64,000 nucleotides of DNA from Nitrosomonas sp. JL21. GTDB lineage: Bacteria > Pseudomonadota > Gammaproteobacteria > Burkholderiales > Nitrosomonadaceae. Position numbers and translations under genes: made by a program. The stretch spans positions 1 to 64,000 of the forward strand of contig NZ_QRCB01000007.1 of NCBI RefSeq assembly GCF_009833095.1, read 5' to 3'. This document shows, piece by piece, positions 41,234-49,153 of this stretch; the first letter of the stretch is position 1; each line of letters opens with the position of its first letter. The notes beneath the pieces are model-generated. The model was not told where the DNA came from, did no database searches, and saw nothing but the letters and a program-made list of their open reading frames with translations.

Positions 41234-41959
41234 ATGGCTGGGGAGTCTCAACATATCATTCGCCTACTGGTTGCGGAAAGTTTTGAGCTGATGAGGATGG
41301 GTCTGCGCTCATTATTACAGGATCACGGCTCCATACATCTGATCGCGGAAACTCACTGCATCGAAGAAATGCTGGATTTGGTGTTGCAGCATAAACCGGA
41401 CGTGGTTCTTTTGGATCTGCAATTGACCAATGGGAATTGTGCGGATTACATTTCCAAGTTGTTGAATATGCACCCTCGCTGTAAGGTATTAGCTTTTTCT
41501 CCGAATACCGATAAAGAGATCTGCTTGCAGACATTCCGTTCAGGCGCGGTGGGCATCGTTAACAAGCACCATTCTTCAGATCTATTGCTGAAGGCCATCT
41601 TCTCGATCCATGCCGGGCAGATCTGGTTTGATCGTCAGATCATCAAAGTGCTGTTGCGGGGACAGGGCGGAGATGGGGAGGATCATGAAAAATCAAATCA
41701 TAACAATCAATTACCGCAACCTCGTTTAAGCGAGAGCGAGCGGCAAGTGGCTTATCTGGCGTGTAAGGGATTGTCAGCAAAGGAAATCAGCACACATTTA
41801 TTCATCACTGAGAAAACTGTGCGCAATCAACTCTCCATTGTTTATAAAAAAATAGGGGTCAAGAAACAAGTTGAACTTTGCCTGAAAGCTCCGCATTATA
41901 ACTACTTCAAGGTTTCCTACATGTTCGGGACATTTGACTCTGAAAATTCCGAAAAATGA
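41234..41959 (+). CDS. LuxR-family regulator with altered receiver acidic pocket
   Basis: The 241-residue protein has a receiver-like domain (about 8-125) and a LuxR helix-turn-helix (about 165-222; RLSESERQVAYLACKGLSAKEI, FITEKTVRNQLSIVYKKIG). The phosphoacceptor Asp is kept in VVLLDLQLTNG and the Lys in GIVNKHHSSDL. The usual acidic pair after beta-1 reads LLVAESFELMRMG, Glu-Ser instead of Asp-Asp, so Mg binding and phosphorylation may be impaired or altered. No kinase gene adjoins. It precedes the copper-oxidase pair by about 220 nt and is flanked by direct repeats, so control of those genes is plausible. ATG 41234 has only a weak ribosome site. Confidence 0.88.
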   Translation: MAGESQHIIRLLVAESFELMRMGLRSLLQDHGSIHLIAETHCIEEMLDLVLQHKPDVVLLDLQLTNGNCADYISKLLNMHPRCKVLAFSPNTDKEICLQTFRSGAVGIVNKHHSSDLLLKAIFSIHAGQIWFDRQIIKVLLRGQGGDGEDHEKSNHNNQLPQPRLSESERQVAYLACKGLSAKEISTHLFITEKTVRNQLSIVYKKIGVKKQVELCLKAPHYNYFKVSYMFGTFDSENSEK

Positions 41960-41987: not shown

Positions 41988-42182
41988 TTAGCCGCAAACG
42001 GCTTTGATACCATTCCCTTCTCACATTTGAATAATAGCAGCCAAACCCGGCTGCTATTTGTTTGAATAAAGTGAGTTTTCGAGCGTCGTGTGTAATCAGT
42101 TCGATCCAGTATGGGAGCGATCGATTGATCAATACCGCGATTATTCGAGACATATTTTTCATTTTAAGGAGGGATGTTAAAA

Positions 42183-43178
42183 ATGTCGTTTCAATCTAAT
42201 CCATTGTGCAGTGGCACAGGACTCTTCGAGAGTTCTTACGCTGCGCAGTCCACCCCTCATGCTGTGTTCAAGCCGTTACTCGCACTTTTCTTAGGCGTAA
42301 TGATGTCGTTACTCCTGAATGGTAACAGCTTGGCTGCAGAGCATGTGATTCAGTTGACCGCTGAAGAAACCCGTGACGACGGTTTCGGCAATAAGTTACT
42401 GGCGTACAAGATGCTGAGTCACACGATTGGGGGTACTAACGTCACACATCGTTACAGTACCGAGGCAACTATCCCTGGACCAACCATCGAGTTGACCGAA
42501 GGCGATACCGTCAAAATTTCAATTTTGAATGCCATTCCCGGCAATAATGTTCCGGTTCCCGGAATCAGCAAGCAAGTCAGTATTCACGTGCATGGCGTTC
42601 ATTACGACATTCTCAGCGACGGTACGCTCAAAGTCATCAACAAGCTTTTCGATGAAGGCGCTGGCGCCGGACTGGAAGAAACTTATGTCGTTTACGAATA
42701 CAAATGGAATGTGGCGCCCGGAACTGCTGGAACCTGGGCATACCACGACCATAATTTCGAAACGCACAACGGCGCCGAGCATAAAGGCCTTTTTGGCGCC
42801 ATCATCGTCAACCCGATCGGTGCGCCTCAGTACGCCAAGGAATATGTGCTGTACCTCGGGGATGACGCATTCTGGGGAATGGAAATCAACGGCGCGAATA
42901 AAAAACAATCCAAACACGGTCCCAATCCAACACTATCTGCTAGAGAAGATACCCGTGTCAGGTTTCATCTGATCGCATTGGGAACCGATATCCACACCTT
43001 CAAACTGGATGGATATCATTGGTTTGATCCGGGTACTCACAACCTTATCAATCAGGCCGCCATCGGTCCGCTCGAAAAGCACGTATTCAGCGTCAAAGCT
43101 GAACATAGCTCACAGTATGAGGATAAGAATCTTTCTAATCGACTGCTGGGCATGAGGGGTAAATTCAATGTTCAGTAA
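42183..43178 (+). CDS. Multicopper-oxidase-like protein, domain-1 ligand subunit
   Basis: The ribosome site AAGGAGGG ends 42173, directly against an ATG at 42174, so ATG 42183 is the better start (331 residues). A signal peptide (LLALFLGVMMSLLLNGNSLAAEH) predicts export. Two cupredoxin domains follow. The first keeps the oxidase motifs for the trinuclear copper site: H135-V-H137-G in VSIHVHGVHYD and H188-D-H190 in TWAYHDHNFE. The second domain is degenerate: the expected HxxHxH reads HTFKLDGYHW (only His271 kept) and there is no HCH segment. Alone it could not form a complete multicopper oxidase. The next gene, about 40 nt later, has the complementary half. Confidence 0.88.
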   Translation: MSFQSNPLCSGTGLFESSYAAQSTPHAVFKPLLALFLGVMMSLLLNGNSLAAEHVIQLTAEETRDDGFGNKLLAYKMLSHTIGGTNVTHRYSTEATIPGPTIELTEGDTVKISILNAIPGNNVPVPGISKQVSIHVHGVHYDILSDGTLKVINKLFDEGAGAGLEETYVVYEYKWNVAPGTAGTWAYHDHNFETHNGAEHKGLFGAIIVNPIGAPQYAKEYVLYLGDDAFWGMEINGANKKQSKHGPNPTLSAREDTRVRFHLIALGTDIHTFKLDGYHWFDPGTHNLINQAAIGPLEKHVFSVKAEHSSQYEDKNLSNRLLGMRGKFNVQ

Positions 43179-43215
43179 GCGAGAAGATCAATATCGAGAT
43201 GATAAGGACAATACA

Positions 43216-45990
43216 ATGAATACGAGTACACCTTCAAGATTTAACCGCCCGATGTTGCAGGGGGCAAAATGGATGGTTGTGGTGGTAGCATTTTTGGCAT
43301 CATCGGTAGCATGGGCTGCAGTTCATAATATTGCACTGACCGCCAAAGCGTTGCCGAATGGGCAATTAGCCTATGCATTGGGAGGAAACGAAGCTGTCAT
43401 TCCCGGCCCCACCTTGTTTGTGAAAAAAGGCGACACGTTAAGCATCACATTGACCAACAGCACCGAAGTCAAGGTCGGATTTGAAATTCCAGGGCTGTCC
43501 GCGCAAAACGCTGGCAGGATCAACCCGGGAAAAACCAAGAAATTCACTGTCAAGGCCAATAAAGAAGGCGCTTACGCTTATCATGGCGATATGGGCGGTA
43601 AGGAATTGCTCGGCCTGTTTGGCGCAGTGATTGTCGATAAGCCGGCTGGGCCAGTTGATAGCTATATCGAAGCCAACGGCAATATCGTGCCTGTTTCTCA
43701 AGCACAGCTCGATAAACAATTCGTGCTGTTCATGGTCGGTTCTACGTTCTGGGGCACTGAGATTTCCAGCGACGGTACCCAAAAACCGCTCTGGGCTAAT
43801 CCGAATCCTGGCGCAGTTGAAAACGACATCGTGCGTTTTCATATCCTATCCGTTGGGCCTGGGCATACGTTCCATTTACACGCACACCGCTGGCTGAAAA
43901 CCGGCACGCGCGAAATCATCGACACCAAATTGTTGAAAGAAGAATTTGATACGCATTCTTTCACGATCAAAGCAGGTTCCGGGGTCGGTGCAGGTGATTG
44001 GCAATATCACTGCCATCTGATCGCACATATGGAAGCCGGCATGCATGGCAGCTTCAAAGTCGATCCCGTGGGTGGCGATGGCGCCAGTCTCGTCGGCGCG
44101 TCTCCCTATGGCCGGATTTTGCTGGGACCGAAAGATGAACCTGGACTAGTGACGTTCGAAGTATCCGATGAACCTGCAAGCTGGTTCCGAAGCGCTCGCG
44201 GCGACGCGATCGTCAAGCTTAGCGACCCGGCTGCGAACGGCTCGCCACTGCAAGGCGTCGACATCAAGACAAAATCGTTGGAAGTCATGTCGCCGGGCAG
44301 CAGCGTCAATTTCATCATGTCGGATACTAATGGCGCACATACGATCAGTTCATTGCTGTGGCCAACCGGCGCGCATCATATGCCGTTTGATCAATCCAGC
44401 GCATACCGGGGTGGTGGCATTGTCAAACTCGATACACCGGGATTGTATGTCTTTACCTGTAAGGTACATCCGTATATGTTTGCCGCCGTCATCGTCGATG
44501 ATCCCGCGACGCCAGGACTGGATTTGGGCAATCCGCAACAAGACTTCAAGATCGATCTGGTCACCGGTATAAAAGGATTACCCACCAGCAGCGATCTGGC
44601 GATTCGATTATTGCAAACGTTTTTCATTACAACAGCGCCTCCAAACTGGCAAGATTATTCATCGGGTGTATGGAATGTCAGATTCCCGACGATTCCGGTG
44701 CAGATTTCCGGTGCGCCGCGTGATCCCAATCTGACAGAAGGTGGGATCGCCGCGCCGCTCAGCATACTGAATGTTACTAATCAAACGCTCAGTTTCGGTA
44801 GTACACCCGTAACGCCAGGGGTAGGTGAAGTGTGGGCTAATACGCAATTCGAAAAAACCGCGCACAAGTATAAACCGGGCACGACCACCGTCGTGGATAC
44901 AACCAACTGGACCGTCAAACGTAAAGTAGCCTTACCACAGATCAATAACAATAATCCGCATAACATGTGGACCAGCCGCGATCAATCAGTGATTTATCAG
45001 ACCCAATGGTTTGATAACAAATTATCGATGATCGAGCGTGAAACTGGTGAGTTGATCAAAAATATCCAGGTCGGCTATTCACCTTCCCACGTCATGACAT
45101 TACCGACGAATGATGATATTACGATTGCGATCAATGGCGAAAATGGAATTTATATCATTCCTGCCGGAACAACCAAGGTAAGTAAAATGCTGCCCACGCA
45201 AGGACAAGGTCATATTTCGGCAAATCCGCATGGACATTGGATCAGCTCTGACGGTTCCAAGATCGTTACGCCGAACATCAATACCCATGACATCGGTATT
45301 TATGGTGCACAAGGCGGCATTCAAGCCCGGACACCGACTTCAGTGAATGCTCCTGGTGCGCACCCGATCGCTATTGGCATGATGCCCGATTCCAGCAAAA
45401 TCTTTGCGGCTAACTTGTTGCATCATAGCCTGAGCGTACTGAACGAATCAGGAGAATTGCTGAATACCATCAATCTTATCGACGAATACGATCCGATGAC
45501 TGGCCCGGTCGATAAAAATGGAAATGGAGAGTTCGAGCTTGGTATATTGCCGATTCAATCGCCAGTTTCGCCGGATGGCAAAGCAGTTGTTATTGCCACG
45601 ATGGGTGGTTCTATCGTCATCGTGGACACCGCTACTGAGAAAGTCGTCAAAACGCTGCCTTGTGATCCGGGTTGTCATGGGGCTAACTTTGGAGCGAAGC
45701 AAGGCGGAGGCTACTATGCTTATGTGACCACCAAATTCAGTAATAGACTGACTGTGGTGGATATCGATCCAAATAACGATGGCGATATTTCTGATGCAAC
45801 CATTGCCGGTCATGTCTCACTGGTCGACACTCCTCATACGGCCAAGGACGACAGGATGAGCGAGTTACCAGGATTCGGCGGTCAAGGTGTCCTGGCTGTT
45901 CCGAATGTCTACAACGGCTGGGTGCAAAAACTGCCTGCGGTATGGAAAGCGGGTCTGACTTCAGACCAACAAAATCCTATTGGACATTAG
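43216..45990 (+). CDS. Multicopper-oxidase-like protein, domain-2 ligand subunit with amicyanin-like and beta-propeller domains
   Basis: ATG 43216 has AAGGA upstream (924 residues); an ATG at 43168 overlaps the previous gene. A signal peptide ends near VAWAAVHN. Cupredoxin 1 has lost its ligands (VGFEIPGL, YAYHGDMGG). Cupredoxin 2 has the full second set: H217TFHLHAH224 and H265-C266-H267-LIA-H271-MEAG-M276, i.e. T1, T2 and T3 residues. A third cupredoxin (about 330-435) has His375 and CKVHPYM (C415, H418, M421), spaced as in amicyanin. The rest (about 520-924) is a YVTN-like beta-propeller with ANLLHHSLSVLNESGELL and SPDGKAVVIATMGGSIVIVD repeats and an odd CDPGCH (816-821). It is followed by a strong terminator. 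Confidence 0.9.
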   Translation: MNTSTPSRFNRPMLQGAKWMVVVVAFLASSVAWAAVHNIALTAKALPNGQLAYALGGNEAVIPGPTLFVKKGDTLSITLTNSTEVKVGFEIPGLSAQNAGRINPGKTKKFTVKANKEGAYAYHGDMGGKELLGLFGAVIVDKPAGPVDSYIEANGNIVPVSQAQLDKQFVLFMVGSTFWGTEISSDGTQKPLWANPNPGAVENDIVRFHILSVGPGHTFHLHAHRWLKTGTREIIDTKLLKEEFDTHSFTIKAGSGVGAGDWQYHCHLIAHMEAGMHGSFKVDPVGGDGASLVGASPYGRILLGPKDEPGLVTFEVSDEPASWFRSARGDAIVKLSDPAANGSPLQGVDIKTKSLEVMSPGSSVNFIMSDTNGAHTISSLLWPTGAHHMPFDQSSAYRGGGIVKLDTPGLYVFTCKVHPYMFAAVIVDDPATPGLDLGNPQQDFKIDLVTGIKGLPTSSDLAIRLLQTFFITTAPPNWQDYSSGVWNVRFPTIPVQISGAPRDPNLTEGGIAAPLSILNVTNQTLSFGSTPVTPGVGEVWANTQFEKTAHKYKPGTTTVVDTTNWTVKRKVALPQINNNNPHNMWTSRDQSVIYQTQWFDNKLSMIERETGELIKNIQVGYSPSHVMTLPTNDDITIAINGENGIYIIPAGTTKVSKMLPTQGQGHISANPHGHWISSDGSKIVTPNINTHDIGIYGAQGGIQARTPTSVNAPGAHPIAIGMMPDSSKIFAANLLHHSLSVLNESGELLNTINLIDEYDPMTGPVDKNGNGEFELGILPIQSPVSPDGKAVVIATMGGSIVIVDTATEKVVKTLPCDPGCHGANFGAKQGGGYYAYVTTKFSNRLTVVDIDPNNDGDISDATIAGHVSLVDTPHTAKDDRMSELPGFGGQGVLAVPNVYNGWVQKLPAVWKAGLTSDQQNPIGH

Positions 45991-46016
45991 TCAGTAGAAA
46001 CTAACTCCTAGCTCTG

Positions 46017-46050
46017 CGGCTGCCAGTGTTGAACTGGCAGCCGTTTTTTT
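46017..46050 (+). terminator. Rho-independent terminator after the copper-oxidase pair
   Basis: A 10-bp perfect GC-rich stem, CGGCTGCCAG (46017-46026) with CTGGCAGCCG (46034-46043), followed by seven T. It starts 26 nt after the stop of the second oxidase gene and separates it from the next gene. Confidence 0.93.
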
Positions 46051-46349: not shown

Positions 46350-47531
46350 GTGTTTTTCAAAGAATTTCTATCATCCCTTCATTTTTTTTCGTCATATATC
46401 AGCAACTCTTCACGTAGTAAAAATCCTTCAATATCCAAACGGCATGTTCACTTGAATTGGAAAATCTATGCAGCACTAGTCATTTTGTTGCCGGCCTTGG
46501 CATCTGCGGCAGTTCCAGCAGGATTCAAAGCAACCGTCATTGCGCAAAACATGGTCAATCCCACTGCGATGGCCGTTTCGCCGGATGGACGTGTATTCAT
46601 CGGTGAGCAAGCTGGACGAATACGGGTTGTGGATAATAATCATATGCTGGGTGCATCGCTTCTGAACATCAAGTCGAAAGTGGATAGTACTGGAGAACGC
46701 GGCCTGCTGGGCATCGCACTTGATCCTAATTTCCTGGTCAATCAGTGGATATATGTGTATTACACCAGCAAAGCGCCGTTCCTTCATAATCGCGTCAGCC
46801 GTTTCAAAGTGCAAGGTAACGGCATTGTTCAAGGTAGTGAAGTAGTCATCTTGGATATCCAGCAGCTCAACAGCTACAACAACCATAATGGTGGCGCCAT
46901 ACATTTTGGAACTGACGGAAAACTTTATGTAGCTGTCGGAGATAATGCGGTACCCAGCAATGCGCAAAGCTTGGCAAACCTCAAAGGCAAAATTCTCCGC
47001 ATCAATAAAGATGGCAGTATTCCAACCGACAATCCATTTTTTAAAACCGCCAAGGGTGTCAACAGGGCAATCTGGGCGTTGGGTCTGCGCAATCCATTCA
47101 CGTTTGCGATACAGCGCGGCACAGGAAGAATGTTCATTAACGATGTAGGCAAGGATATTGCTGAAGAAATCAATCGCGGTATGAAAGGTGCCAATTATGG
47201 CTGGCCGGCGATCGAAGGGTGGGGCAACAATCCGAAATATCGTAATCCTATCGCTGCCTACAATCATGGCAACGCGCCGTGCGCGGCAATTGTCGGCAGC
47301 GCTTTTTACAATCCGATTTCTGAGCAATTTCCAGCTTATTTCGTCGGTGATTATTTTTTTGGAGATTTCTGCGGCGGATGGATTCGTCGATTCGATACGA
47401 CCACCCGGGAAATAAAACCGTTCGCGAGCGGATATAAAACTCTGGTGGATCTTCAGGTCGATCCTGATGGGACACTCTATATCTTGCAAAAAGAGGGTGG
47501 AAAATTAACGGCCGTCAGATGGAATGGTTGA
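46350..47531 (+). CDS. Secreted PQQ-dependent sugar dehydrogenase-like protein
   Basis: The start is GTG 46350 with AAAGGAGAAAG at ideal spacing (393 residues). A late signal peptide (about 37-55, AALVILLPALASAA) predicts periplasmic export. The body is the six-bladed GSDH propeller of the soluble glucose dehydrogenase/Asd family: NPTAMAVSPDGRVFIGEQAG, GERGLLGIALDPNF, His179 in NNHNGGAIHFGTDGKLYVAVGD (the catalytic-His region), GLRNPFTFAIQRGTGRMFINDVG, and YGWPAIEG. The family oxidises sugars using PQQ and Ca, but many members have no proven substrate. It lies about 360 nt after the oxidase pair, behind their terminator, so it has its own promoter. Confidence 0.9.
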   Translation: MFFKEFLSSLHFFSSYISNSSRSKNPSISKRHVHLNWKIYAALVILLPALASAAVPAGFKATVIAQNMVNPTAMAVSPDGRVFIGEQAGRIRVVDNNHMLGASLLNIKSKVDSTGERGLLGIALDPNFLVNQWIYVYYTSKAPFLHNRVSRFKVQGNGIVQGSEVVILDIQQLNSYNNHNGGAIHFGTDGKLYVAVGDNAVPSNAQSLANLKGKILRINKDGSIPTDNPFFKTAKGVNRAIWALGLRNPFTFAIQRGTGRMFINDVGKDIAEEINRGMKGANYGWPAIEGWGNNPKYRNPIAAYNHGNAPCAAIVGSAFYNPISEQFPAYFVGDYFFGDFCGGWIRRFDTTTREIKPFASGYKTLVDLQVDPDGTLYILQKEGGKLTAVRWNG

Positions 47532-47614: not shown

Positions 47615-49153
47615 TCATAAAAAGGGAAGACCGGTTTGCATCAATCCAGACAGGCCGATATGTTCAGTATTGAAACTGCTATCCGCAGCCACTACAGCCA
47701 GATCTCCCGAGGTCATTTCACCTTTGTCGAGCAACTGGACATAGGGAGATTTTTCATTGAATGAAGGTGCTTCGCTGAATAGGTTCTGCCATAGCAACGT
47801 GACGATCTCATCGTGACTGGTCAGTCCAGTCGCCTGAATGGCTAATTGCCCAAGTTGTTCATAGCCTAACCCTTTATTTGCCTCAGCCAGGCCTAATCCG
47901 ACTAGTTCGAGATTGAGAACGGCTGGAGCACCAAACACAGCGCCGATCAACTTGGCCACTTGGCCAGCCTGTCCATCCAGATCGAGCGCTACATTGAGAT
48001 CATTGAATTTCAAGCGCTCGATGTTGATCAACTGATCCGTATCGGCTGATTGTGCGATAGCAGTTAGGGTATAGCCACTGGCGGTTTTATTCAGCATCGA
48101 CTGAGCCCGCGGTGAACGCACCTCGACATAATCGATGCCTGCTCCGCCATCCAATGAATTGCTGGCAGTGTTTCCAATCAGAATATCATTGCCTTGACCG
48201 GCAATTACATTTTCTATGGTGACACCGCCCGCGATCCATACATTTGGAATCGGGGAACCTACATTCACGCCATTCGACTGCACATATACCGGCGTACCAA
48301 TGAACGAAGCGGCAGCCGGATTCAAATCAATCGCATTGGGCGTTGAACCGGTGAATTGAATGGTATCTATCCCGCCCGCATCCCAGATAGTTTCATGGTA
48401 GGGTGTTGTTTCATCGAAAGCGTAAATGTCATTGCCGCTATGGTATTGCAGGTTGGCTCCATAGATATATTGAATGGCAGCAATATCCAGAATCATCGGT
48501 GTAGTTGGATGGAATGAATATTCATTACCTTCTTCACCGGCCGGAGTGGCATAGGTATAACTCATCACCGTGTGCATGGTATCGTCCAGGTTCGGCGGCA
48601 ACGTAGCCGCAGTGTCGTCATCCGGATCAAAAAAGGGATGTTTCAGACCCAATGCATGGCCGATTTCATGCAAGAGCGCTTCAAAGGAAATCGTGCCAGG
48701 ATTCCAATCTTGAGCGTTGAGAAGTCCTGATGTGTTGGCCCAGATATCGCCCGCCCGTACACTATAACCAGGCAAATAAGACCATGCCAGCGTATATTCA
48801 TTCGGATCCAGGCTGTATGCGGCCCGAATGTCGCCCACTTCGCTGGGTGTTTCCATGACTTTAACGAAATTGAGATTAGCGACATTGGCCCAACGTTGCA
48901 GTGCCTGTTCAAAATTGGCCTGATCTTGACTGGTAAGGGGCATAGCCGCAGTACTCCACGGTTCGCCGTCACCGGATGGAGGTCCATAACCGGTTCCAGG
49001 TTGAGTGGACCAGAGGAGTGGATCATTGCTCGTCGGAAAACTATAGGTGATCGCGTGATTTTCCCAATGCCGATCGCTCAATAATGAATCGATCATATTG
49101 ACATTCGTTAATGGGGTATCAACTACATTGCTTGAAACATACGGAGTAGCCAT
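47615..49153 (-). CDS. Serralysin-like M10 metalloprotease with RTX and DUF4214 segments
   Basis: The 512-residue protein lacks an N-terminal signal peptide, as expected for type I secretion substrates. Metzincin zinc motif HEIGHALGLKHP (162-173) and Met-turn VMSYTYA are intact, so activity is likely. Residues about 315-340 form an RTX-type block (NVIAGQGNDILIGN, SLDGGAGIDYVEV) that binds Ca. The C-terminal part (about 400-500; VAKLIGAVFGAPAVL, LLWQNLFSEAP) looks like DUF4214, often seen in secreted RTX proteins. No ABC/MFP/TolC export genes lie nearby. It is convergent with the sugar-dehydrogenase gene. Confidence 0.92.
   Translation of the reverse strand: MATPYVSSNVVDTPLTNVNMIDSLLSDRHWENHAITYSFPTSNDPLLWSTQPGTGYGPPSGDGEPWSTAAMPLTSQDQANFEQALQRWANVANLNFVKVMETPSEVGDIRAAYSLDPNEYTLAWSYLPGYSVRAGDIWANTSGLLNAQDWNPGTISFEALLHEIGHALGLKHPFFDPDDDTAATLPPNLDDTMHTVMSYTYATPAGEEGNEYSFHPTTPMILDIAAIQYIYGANLQYHSGNDIYAFDETTPYHETIWDAGGIDTIQFTGSTPNAIDLNPAAASFIGTPVYVQSNGVNVGSPIPNVWIAGGVTIENVIAGQGNDILIGNTASNSLDGGAGIDYVEVRSPRAQSMLNKTASGYTLTAIAQSADTDQLINIERLKFNDLNVALDLDGQAGQVAKLIGAVFGAPAVLNLELVGLGLAEANKGLGYEQLGQLAIQATGLTSHDEIVTLLWQNLFSEAPSFNEKSPYVQLLDKGEMTSGDLAVVAADSSFNTEHIGLSGLMQTGLPFL

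Follow-up and report, generated by a model that had tools for sequence, protein, structure and literature searches.

In two-domain multicopper oxidases (MCOs), the trinuclear copper site lies at the contact of adjacent chains, one of them supplying domain 1 and the other domain 2; the known members are homotrimers in which both halves of the ligand set come from one gene product. Two genes of Nitrosomonas sp. JL21, here termed A and B, both match two-domain laccases in Pfam, NCBIfam, and PDB sequence searches, and neither chain carries a complete trinuclear set, which raises the question of whether, and with which partner, such a site could form. The genes lie within the window, a stretch of 64,000 nucleotides (contig NZ_QRCB01000007.1, positions 1 to 64,000), in which an ORF check found both reading frames present. 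The longest ORF of gene A begins at 42174; the methionine at its codon 4 (42183), conserved in 66 of the 69 rows having a residue there, coincides with the start given in the original prediction. The start codon of gene B is the ATG at 43216. Residue numbers used here exceed those of that prediction by 3 for A and by 1 for B, B being counted from 43213. The A product is probably exported, judging from a signal peptide recognized by eye in its sequence. The features of the pair are:

42183..43178, + strand: gene A, two-domain MCO-like protein with domain-1 ligands only (ORF, family searches, alignment rows)
42585..42593, + strand: A domain-1 ligands H138-V-H140, previously H135/H137 (74/74 family rows)
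42744..42752, + strand: A domain-1 ligands H191-D-H193, previously H188/H190 (74/74 family rows)
42819..43175, + strand: A second cupredoxin domain, lacking the HCH motif and the domain-2 HxH (alignment rows; border approximate)
43216..45990, + strand: gene B, encoding both MCO domains followed by a type-1 cupredoxin domain and then a beta-propeller (ORF, family searches)
43318..43707, + strand: B domain 1, without copper ligands (alignment rows; borders approximate)
43864..43887, + strand: B domain-2 motif HTFHLHAH, with H218, H221, and H223 (73/73 family rows)
44008..44043, + strand: B domain-2 motif H266-C267-H268-x3-H272-x4-M277 (74/74 family rows)
44230..44517, + strand: B amicyanin/pseudoazurin-like type-1 copper domain, with H376, C416, H419, and M422 (74/74 family rows; borders approximate)
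44815..45972, + strand: B beta-propeller (family searches, chosen rows; borders approximate)

The ligand sets of the two proteins are complementary. All 86 aligned A rows from bacteria and archaea are full in domain 1 and lacking in domain 2, and 86 of the 88 B rows are full in domain 2 and lacking in domain 1, the other two being pieces; in these counts the gene pair L047 and L074 enters twice, and the rows are related, some genomes supplying two or three, so that they do not represent independent events. The complete domain-2 set (HxxHxH, HCHxxxHxxxxM) occurs in 0/86 A rows and the complete domain-1 ligands in 0/88 B rows, while between them A and B supply the full complement of eight trinuclear histidines plus one type-1 set. 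The original prediction that A retains the domain-1 motifs and has lost HxxHxH and HCH is borne out. The converse claim for B also stands, except for one residue: H225 (then H224), which had been listed with the ligands, belongs to a conserved HAHRW stretch and is left out of the ligand count. Domain 1 of B lacks its ligands in two ways, the HxH loop being absent from the aligned archaeal rows, whereas bacterial B proteins retain the region with changed residues. The additional amicyanin-like copper site that had been noticed in B proved invariant in the family, and its four residues recur in 38/38 chosen rows covering all architectures, so that B contains two complete type-1 sets. The propeller histidines H583, H626, and H822 are conserved in the same 38/38 chosen rows, and H673 in 37/38. 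A consideration against a shared copper site is that the histidines kept in A and B may bind another metal.

The two genes also occur together. Among 125 Nitrosomonadaceae genomes (membership taken from record titles), A is found in 72 and B in the identical 72, with both on a single contig in 70 of these according to the tables. Among archaeal ammonia oxidizers, B is present in 7/7 sampled genomes having a separate A gene, although in one of them (G515) A is a contig-end piece only. No genome with A lacked B, whether among the 72 bacterial genomes or among the 7 archaeal ones sampled, and gene A precedes gene B in the loci read. The co-occurrence check proposed with the original prediction therefore gave strict pairing. 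The distance mirror correlation of A and B is 0.95 (23 loci), a value that linkage alone predicts.

On these grounds, A and B very probably constitute an obligatory two-gene MCO, with the trinuclear copper located between domain 1 of A and domain 2 of B. The idea that the active site is made from both proteins is thus supported, at the level of sequence, by the complementary ligands and the strict pairing. The physical assembly, copper content, use of O2 as acceptor, electron route, substrate, and stoichiometry of A-B are inferred. In the proposed mechanism, the two proteins would be chains of one exported multicopper oxidase, whose trinuclear cluster, at the contact of A domain 1 with B domain 2, would reduce O2 to water. 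Electrons would enter via the type-1 site of B itself, possibly fed from the extra type-1 domain, which might in turn receive them from a propeller-bound substrate or a soluble carrier.

Prediction of the complex, also proposed originally, gave a favorable but partial answer. AlphaFold modeling of a read-through A-B chain, run without a negative control and with a linker that may favor contact, returned a pTM of 0.83, which suggests a confident placing of A on B and says nothing on which domains face each other. By reasoning, this score exceeds that to be expected if the two parts of the 739-residue chain, with 279 and about 415 residues, had no defined placement relative to each other. It belongs to the best of five models, the other four being weaker (mean pLDDT 71-75), and the A ligand region is modeled with modest confidence (block means 45-81, residues 71-150). 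The suggested 3+3 trimer appears doubtful, since A and B cannot alternate throughout a ring with three members; such a ring, if mixed, should contain only one interface at which domain 1 of A faces domain 2 of B.

Undivided MCOs are the closest relatives of A and B. In methanotrophs and Nitrosopumilus-type archaea, MCO rows carry both ligand sets in 21/23 cases, and these organisms have one MCO gene where two (A and B) are found here. They possess the same cupredoxin-propeller, encoded by its own gene in methanotrophs and fused in Nitrosopumilus-type archaea. Two small-laccase-like MCOs on Streptomyces plasmids also have full ligand sets. Phylogenetic analysis places A in one clade of bacteria and archaea (support 100/99) and B likewise (100/99); with the Streptomyces outgroup, the values are 100/99 and 98/94, respectively. 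A joint clade of A and B was neither supported nor rejected (p-AU 0.425). Since A and B each form a single clade across bacteria and archaea, the division into two genes is, as read from these trees, of single origin. Identity to the methanotroph MCO follows the retained ligands: it is 0.51 in bacteria and 0.47 in archaea for A domain 1 and 0.48 and 0.52 for B domain 2, as compared with 0.35 and 0.36 for A domain 2 and 0.34 and 0.37 for B domain 1. As a point against the two-gene reading, the two domains of A show nearly the same conservation between bacteria and archaea (0.44 and 0.43), and therefore A domain 2 is not in free decay. In the favored scheme, an undivided two-domain MCO gene would have been duplicated one time. 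In copy A, the part of the trinuclear site belonging to domain 2 would have been lost and that of domain 1 retained; copy B, joined to a cupredoxin-propeller protein, would have lost the part belonging to domain 1 and retained that of domain 2 along with its type-1 copper. The methanotroph MCO gene lies directly 5' of the propeller gene, an adjacency consistent with MCO duplication and fusion of the second copy.

Several other explanations deserve consideration. A and B might share no site, A acting through its four histidines as a copper-binding or scaffold protein and B transferring electrons through two type-1 coppers, with the other T2/T3 histidines binding something else. The incomplete trinuclear set of each chain and the two complete type-1 sets of B would fit such roles, and assembly of A with B is itself deduced from sequence. 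However, four T2/T3 histidines in B domain 2 and four in A are exactly complementary in bacteria and archaea alike, which argues against separate roles, since those predict no complementarity; together with the strict co-occurrence, this makes the absence of a shared site unlikely. It is conceivable that A or B completes the site of some other cellular MCO instead, as the genome of the window yields seven Cu-oxidase_3 matches, five of which are neither A nor B. The identical genome sets, the adjacency of the genes, and the constant presence of B wherever A occurs in the bacterial and sampled archaeal genomes speak against such a partner, which we regard as highly improbable.

The history of the pair could also be read otherwise. 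The different decay of B domain 1, by loop loss in archaea and by residue changes in bacteria, is what separate, convergent divisions might leave behind, but the joint bacterial and archaeal clades of A and of B render convergence very unlikely. As for an artefact, whether sequencing error, pseudogenes, or one broken MCO misannotated as two genes, stops and frameshifts do occur in single loci only, e.g., L063 and L072; conservation of the pair in 72 family genomes and in archaea already refutes this explanation, whose probability is negligible. The two-gene enzyme with a shared site thus remains the preferred reading.

The surroundings of the pair contain two features of possible relevance to its expression:

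41234..41959, + strand: LuxR-type response regulator just upstream of A, outside the enzyme (family and locus searches)
46016..46044, + strand: terminator-like hairpin with a 12-pair stem and a T run, about 25 bases 3' of B (consensus match)

The hairpin has the longest stem of the terminator-like consensus sites in the region, which number 5 against 4.4 expected, and it probably closes the A-B two-gene unit. The regulator has a match in 29/80 named loci, 22 of these at 53-80% identity, and in 14/45 family loci (5 at 56-61%, 9 at 25-28%); a LuxR-type gene is likewise upstream of A in locus L093. It is often found upstream in close relatives and may control the pair, but its presence is not general. 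Other neighbors in the window (GSDH, serralysin, phoB, DUF3450, and exbB) occur in 0/45 family loci, as compared with 45/45 for A and B. The PQQ-type glucose/sorbosone dehydrogenase (46350) and the serralysin (47615), each found in 1/80 named loci (the near relative L122), were accordingly rejected as parts of the enzyme. One viral_contigs scan with B as the query returned no relative.

Regarding its role in ammonia oxidizers, the idea that the pair is the universal missing NO oxidase was set aside, as the pair is absent from 26 of the 67 family genomes with AmoA, including the one- or few-contig assemblies G010, G013, G087, G093, G095, G096, and G114. Two MCO genes of N. europaea are reported to be raised together during phage infection (log2 6.16 and 6.14; PMC13356812); their identity with A and B is a lead only. 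A more far-reaching scheme, doubtful as a whole, is that ammonia oxidizers possess an enzyme whose O2 site arises only upon joining of two gene products, became established through a single duplication with complementary losses, and was carried as a pair between archaea and bacteria. The propeller histidines would form a second metal or substrate site coupled to the first. Such a two-site enzyme would oxidize either Cu(I) or an intermediate, with reduced nitrogen or one carbon, and pass the electrons to O2.

Among known systems, similarity to the clade III lactonase-type NosZ (NF052460) and the hydrazine synthase beta subunit (NF052340) is confined to the propeller. Membership of the former was rejected, with 29.9 bits for B and 56.1 for a methanotroph propeller against a curated cut-off of 700, as was that of the latter, with at most 51.8 bits against a curated cut-off of 560. 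The small laccases SLAC and Ssl1, and the N. europaea two-domain MCO reportedly described by Lawton in 2009, share sequence, fold, and ligand motifs with A and B; in SLAC/Ssl1-type MCOs both halves reside in one product, whereas here they are distributed over A and B and neither is full. In ceruloplasmin and coagulation factors V and VIII, two-domain units are repeated, with one trinuclear site and equivalent interfaces without one, and a change from symmetric to asymmetric oligomer has been proposed for ceruloplasmin. The principle is like that proposed for A-B, and ceruloplasmin ranks first among the Foldseek matches listed for the read-through model. However, these proteins are single six-domain chains, here two genes are involved, and global superposition fails even for ceruloplasmin, the best match (TM 0.28, rmsd 22.5 Å); none of the 50 matches listed superposes on A and B together. 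Two-domain MCOs, with a trinuclear site built between identical chains, are a classic example of such an active site, and in this case complementary loss of its halves appears to have turned it into an obligatory heteromer. A and B would represent a natural experiment in the passage from a symmetric to an asymmetric oligomer, with the undivided relatives still extant, and a testable, little-studied copper enzyme system of archaeal and bacterial nitrifiers that has undivided counterparts in methanotrophs.

Genes A and B adjoin, and B is followed after about 25 bases by a terminator-like hairpin. The features of the region are as follows.

41234-41959, LuxR-type response regulator, upstream of the A-B pair
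42183-43178, plus strand, gene A (reading frame), adjoining B
43216-45990, plus strand, gene B (reading frame), adjoining A
44815-45972, part of B encoding conserved propeller histidines
46016-46044, terminator-like hairpin of 12 pairs and a T run (consensus match)
46350-47531, PQQ-type glucose/sorbosone dehydrogenase (GSDH), past the hairpin
47615-49153, minus strand, serralysin-like M10 metalloprotease (weak RTX repeat match)

The start of A is the Met at codon 4 of the longest ORF, conserved in 66 of 69 rows. Pfam and NCBIfam report Cu-oxidase matches in A and B alike, and B additionally matches pseudoazurin/amicyanin-like and propeller models. Two-domain laccases are the best solved relatives of both proteins. 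The copper-ligand motifs that the original prediction assigned to domain 1 of A and to domain 2 of B were borne out once the numbering was shifted (by three residues in A and one in B). In a single alignment, all 86 A rows have a full domain-1 ligand set and an incomplete domain-2 set, and 86 of 88 B rows show the converse, the exceptions (L063 and L072) being pieces. Since loci L047 and L074 are one gene pair entered twice, the distinct rows number 85 for A and 87 for B; the rows of the window's own A and B, duplicates of those of L031, are listed separately. Undivided multicopper oxidases (MCOs), with both ligand sets in one chain, are full in both domains in 21 of 23 rows: in the L207 row most of domain 1 is missing and the last domain-2 residue is I, and the L236 row is cut by a contig end. 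Both sets are also full in two Streptomyces plasmid MCOs. The ligand-less halves, A domain 2 and B domain 1, share less identity with the methanotroph MCO than do the halves that kept their ligands. The domain-1 HxH loop is lost in the aligned archaeal B rows; in bacterial B the region is kept, without its ligands. Between bacteria and archaea, domain 1 of B is far less conserved than domain 2 (0.35 versus 0.58), and the two domains of A are about equally conserved (0.44 and 0.43).

Within the Nitrosomonadaceae, where matches include Nitrosomonas, Nitrosospira and Nitrosovibrio, A is present in 72 of 125 genomes, and the strict co-occurrence of the two halves put forward for this pair holds, the same 72 genomes carrying A and an MCO part of B. 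Counting matches to its C-terminal module as well, B is found in 87 genomes; 14 of the 15 remaining match B in the C-terminal part only, G058 being the fifteenth. According to the match tables, 70 of the 72 genomes have A and B together on a single contig, and G038 and G064 have them on separate ones; in G012, the B frame starts inside domain 2. Across 74 A and 75 B rows of the family, every row that covers a retained ligand position carries the ligand itself. Sampling of the order found A in 9 of 399 genomes, all Nitrosomonadaceae. L063 and L072 have a broken or fragmentary B, and a stop lies inside the C-terminal B match of G059 (G059:C55:287-1966). The window's own genome, G000, also encodes a stand-alone cupredoxin-propeller of ~618 residues (G000:C1:61890-63539; L103 3690-5543), 47-53% identical to the C-terminal part of B.

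The genes 3' of B are not part of this conservation. GSDH, serralysin, phoB, DUF3450 and exbB were found in none of 45 family loci, and GSDH and serralysin each occur in one of 80 named loci, that of the near relative L122. A protein resembling GSDH by eye lies near a stand-alone archaeal MCO in L235. A LuxR-type regulator like that at 41234, which may control the A-B pair, accompanies 29 of the 80 named loci, with 53-80% identity in 22 of them and 25-28% in 7, and 14 of the 45 family loci, with 56-61% identity in 5 and 25-28% in 9.

When named genomes were scanned using B domain 2 together with the cupredoxin as query, the 80 top-ranking relatives retained (of 175) included archaeal ammonia oxidisers and methanotrophs. 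Among these 80, the same A-B pair occurs in loci of Nitrososphaerales, Nitrososphaeraceae and Nitrosocosmicus. In 250 genomes sampled from the archaeal class, B was matched in 24 and A in 21. A separate A-type gene is found in seven (G513, G514, G515, G596, G625, G713 and G767, with only a contig-end piece of A in G515), and all seven have B, so that co-occurrence extends to the archaea. Other architectures include MCO, cupredoxin and propeller in one chain (a Nitrosopumilus locus and several archaea of the same class), a stand-alone MCO with all ligands (G617), a fragment at a contig end that most resembles the undivided type (G731) and the cupredoxin-propeller alone (e.g. G634, G693 and G740); G599, G668 and G768 were classed by frame length only. 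A Nitrosopumilus MAG gene (L207 1318-3834; G518:C33; L240) encodes MCO domain 2, cupredoxin and propeller with an incomplete domain 1, and no A homologue was found within the 11 kb read. Methanotroph loci carry an MCO of ~320 residues followed directly by a separate cupredoxin-propeller gene of ~616 residues, and 22 of 151 genomes sampled from the methanotroph order have the undivided MCO. Methylocystis rosea plasmids carry a homologue 35.9% identical to A; on NZ_CP044330.1 (L248), this MCO gene lies directly 5' of a gene annotated as hypothetical. That plasmid is typed as mobilizable and its MCO gene lies near a sigma-70 family factor gene; a sigma factor gene is also found upstream in L199.

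In a tree of 50 rows, without L207 and eleven further rows removed by thinning, A and B each form one clade (both 100/99) containing bacteria and archaea. In a preliminary quick tree (62 rows), A was likewise one clade (99) and the partial L207 row was placed within B. With a Streptomyces MCO outgroup (33 rows), support was 100/99 for A and 98/94 for B, and A plus B as a single clade was not rejected (p-AU 0.425). These trees show that the division arose once, and that it preceded the sharing of the pair between archaea and bacteria. The pair could have arisen by tandem duplication of an MCO, the second copy being fused to a propeller gene, a scheme that the methanotroph gene order, MCO then propeller, fits.

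Among the papers listed by literature searches, none presents such an MCO divided between two genes in its title or the opening of its abstract, and the pair may have been noticed earlier. Lawton 2009 reportedly describes the structure of the N. europaea two-domain MCO, and the four archaeal MCO lineages are said to originate from a PNAS 2016 study. Archaeal two-domain MCOs are divided into four lineages in passages of PMC7785015, which state T1-T3 centres for lineages 1 and 4 and not for 2 and 3. As a guess from these passages, lineages 2 and 3 may be the A-B pair.

All 38 rows chosen to cover every architecture have the extra cupredoxin ligands and the propeller residues H583, H626, H822 and W599 (H673 is in 37, H675 in 36); H717 and H738 are common in Nitrosomonadaceae and not general across architectures. 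The conserved propeller histidines, which sit in PHN, PSH, PHGH and CHG motifs in all architectures compared, suggest a possible metal site at the propeller hub. NosZ clade III and hydrazine synthase beta, tried as identities for the propeller, gave weak matches far below model cut-offs. Most carriers are copper-monooxygenase organisms: of those tested, 20 of 21 archaea have archaeal AmoA, and 10 of 14 others have AMO/PMO subunit A, the window's own assembly being among those with no match. AmoA was found in 67 of the 125 family genomes and in 41 of the 72 with the pair; the 26 AmoA genomes without it indicate that the pair is not essential for ammonia oxidation. No AmoA family match was found in the assembly G000 (completeness given as 99.99%). 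As draft genomes, G014 among them, often have no AmoA match, repeated amo genes are probably lost in assembly, and this is likely to apply to G000. The pair would reduce O2 with electrons from Cu(I), a nitrogen intermediate or some other donor.

The B model (32 sequences in the alignment) reached pLDDT 84.2 and pTM 0.86, and its Foldseek matches include a YVTN propeller and small laccases. The complex was modelled by reading A-B through the intergenic stop as a 739-residue chain, with an alignment of 21 homologous pairs read alike. The best of five models has pLDDT 80.3 and pTM 0.83, with modest confidence in the A ligand region; the other four have mean pLDDT of 71-75. Because a pTM of 0.83 is hardly attainable by independently placed parts, A is probably docked on B in this model, to which the linker of the read-through chain may contribute. 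In the proposed complex, A domain 1 would face B domain 2. Among the matches listed by Foldseek for the A-B model, ceruloplasmin and its relatives come first, with no global superposition (TM 0.28). In known two-domain MCO trimers, each site is shared by adjacent chains, domain 1 coming from one and domain 2 from its neighbour, and ceruloplasmin has one site per ring. Since a three-membered A/B ring has room for just one contact of A domain 1 with B domain 2, one would expect a single site per ring, as is the case in ceruloplasmin, or else an assembly of another kind.
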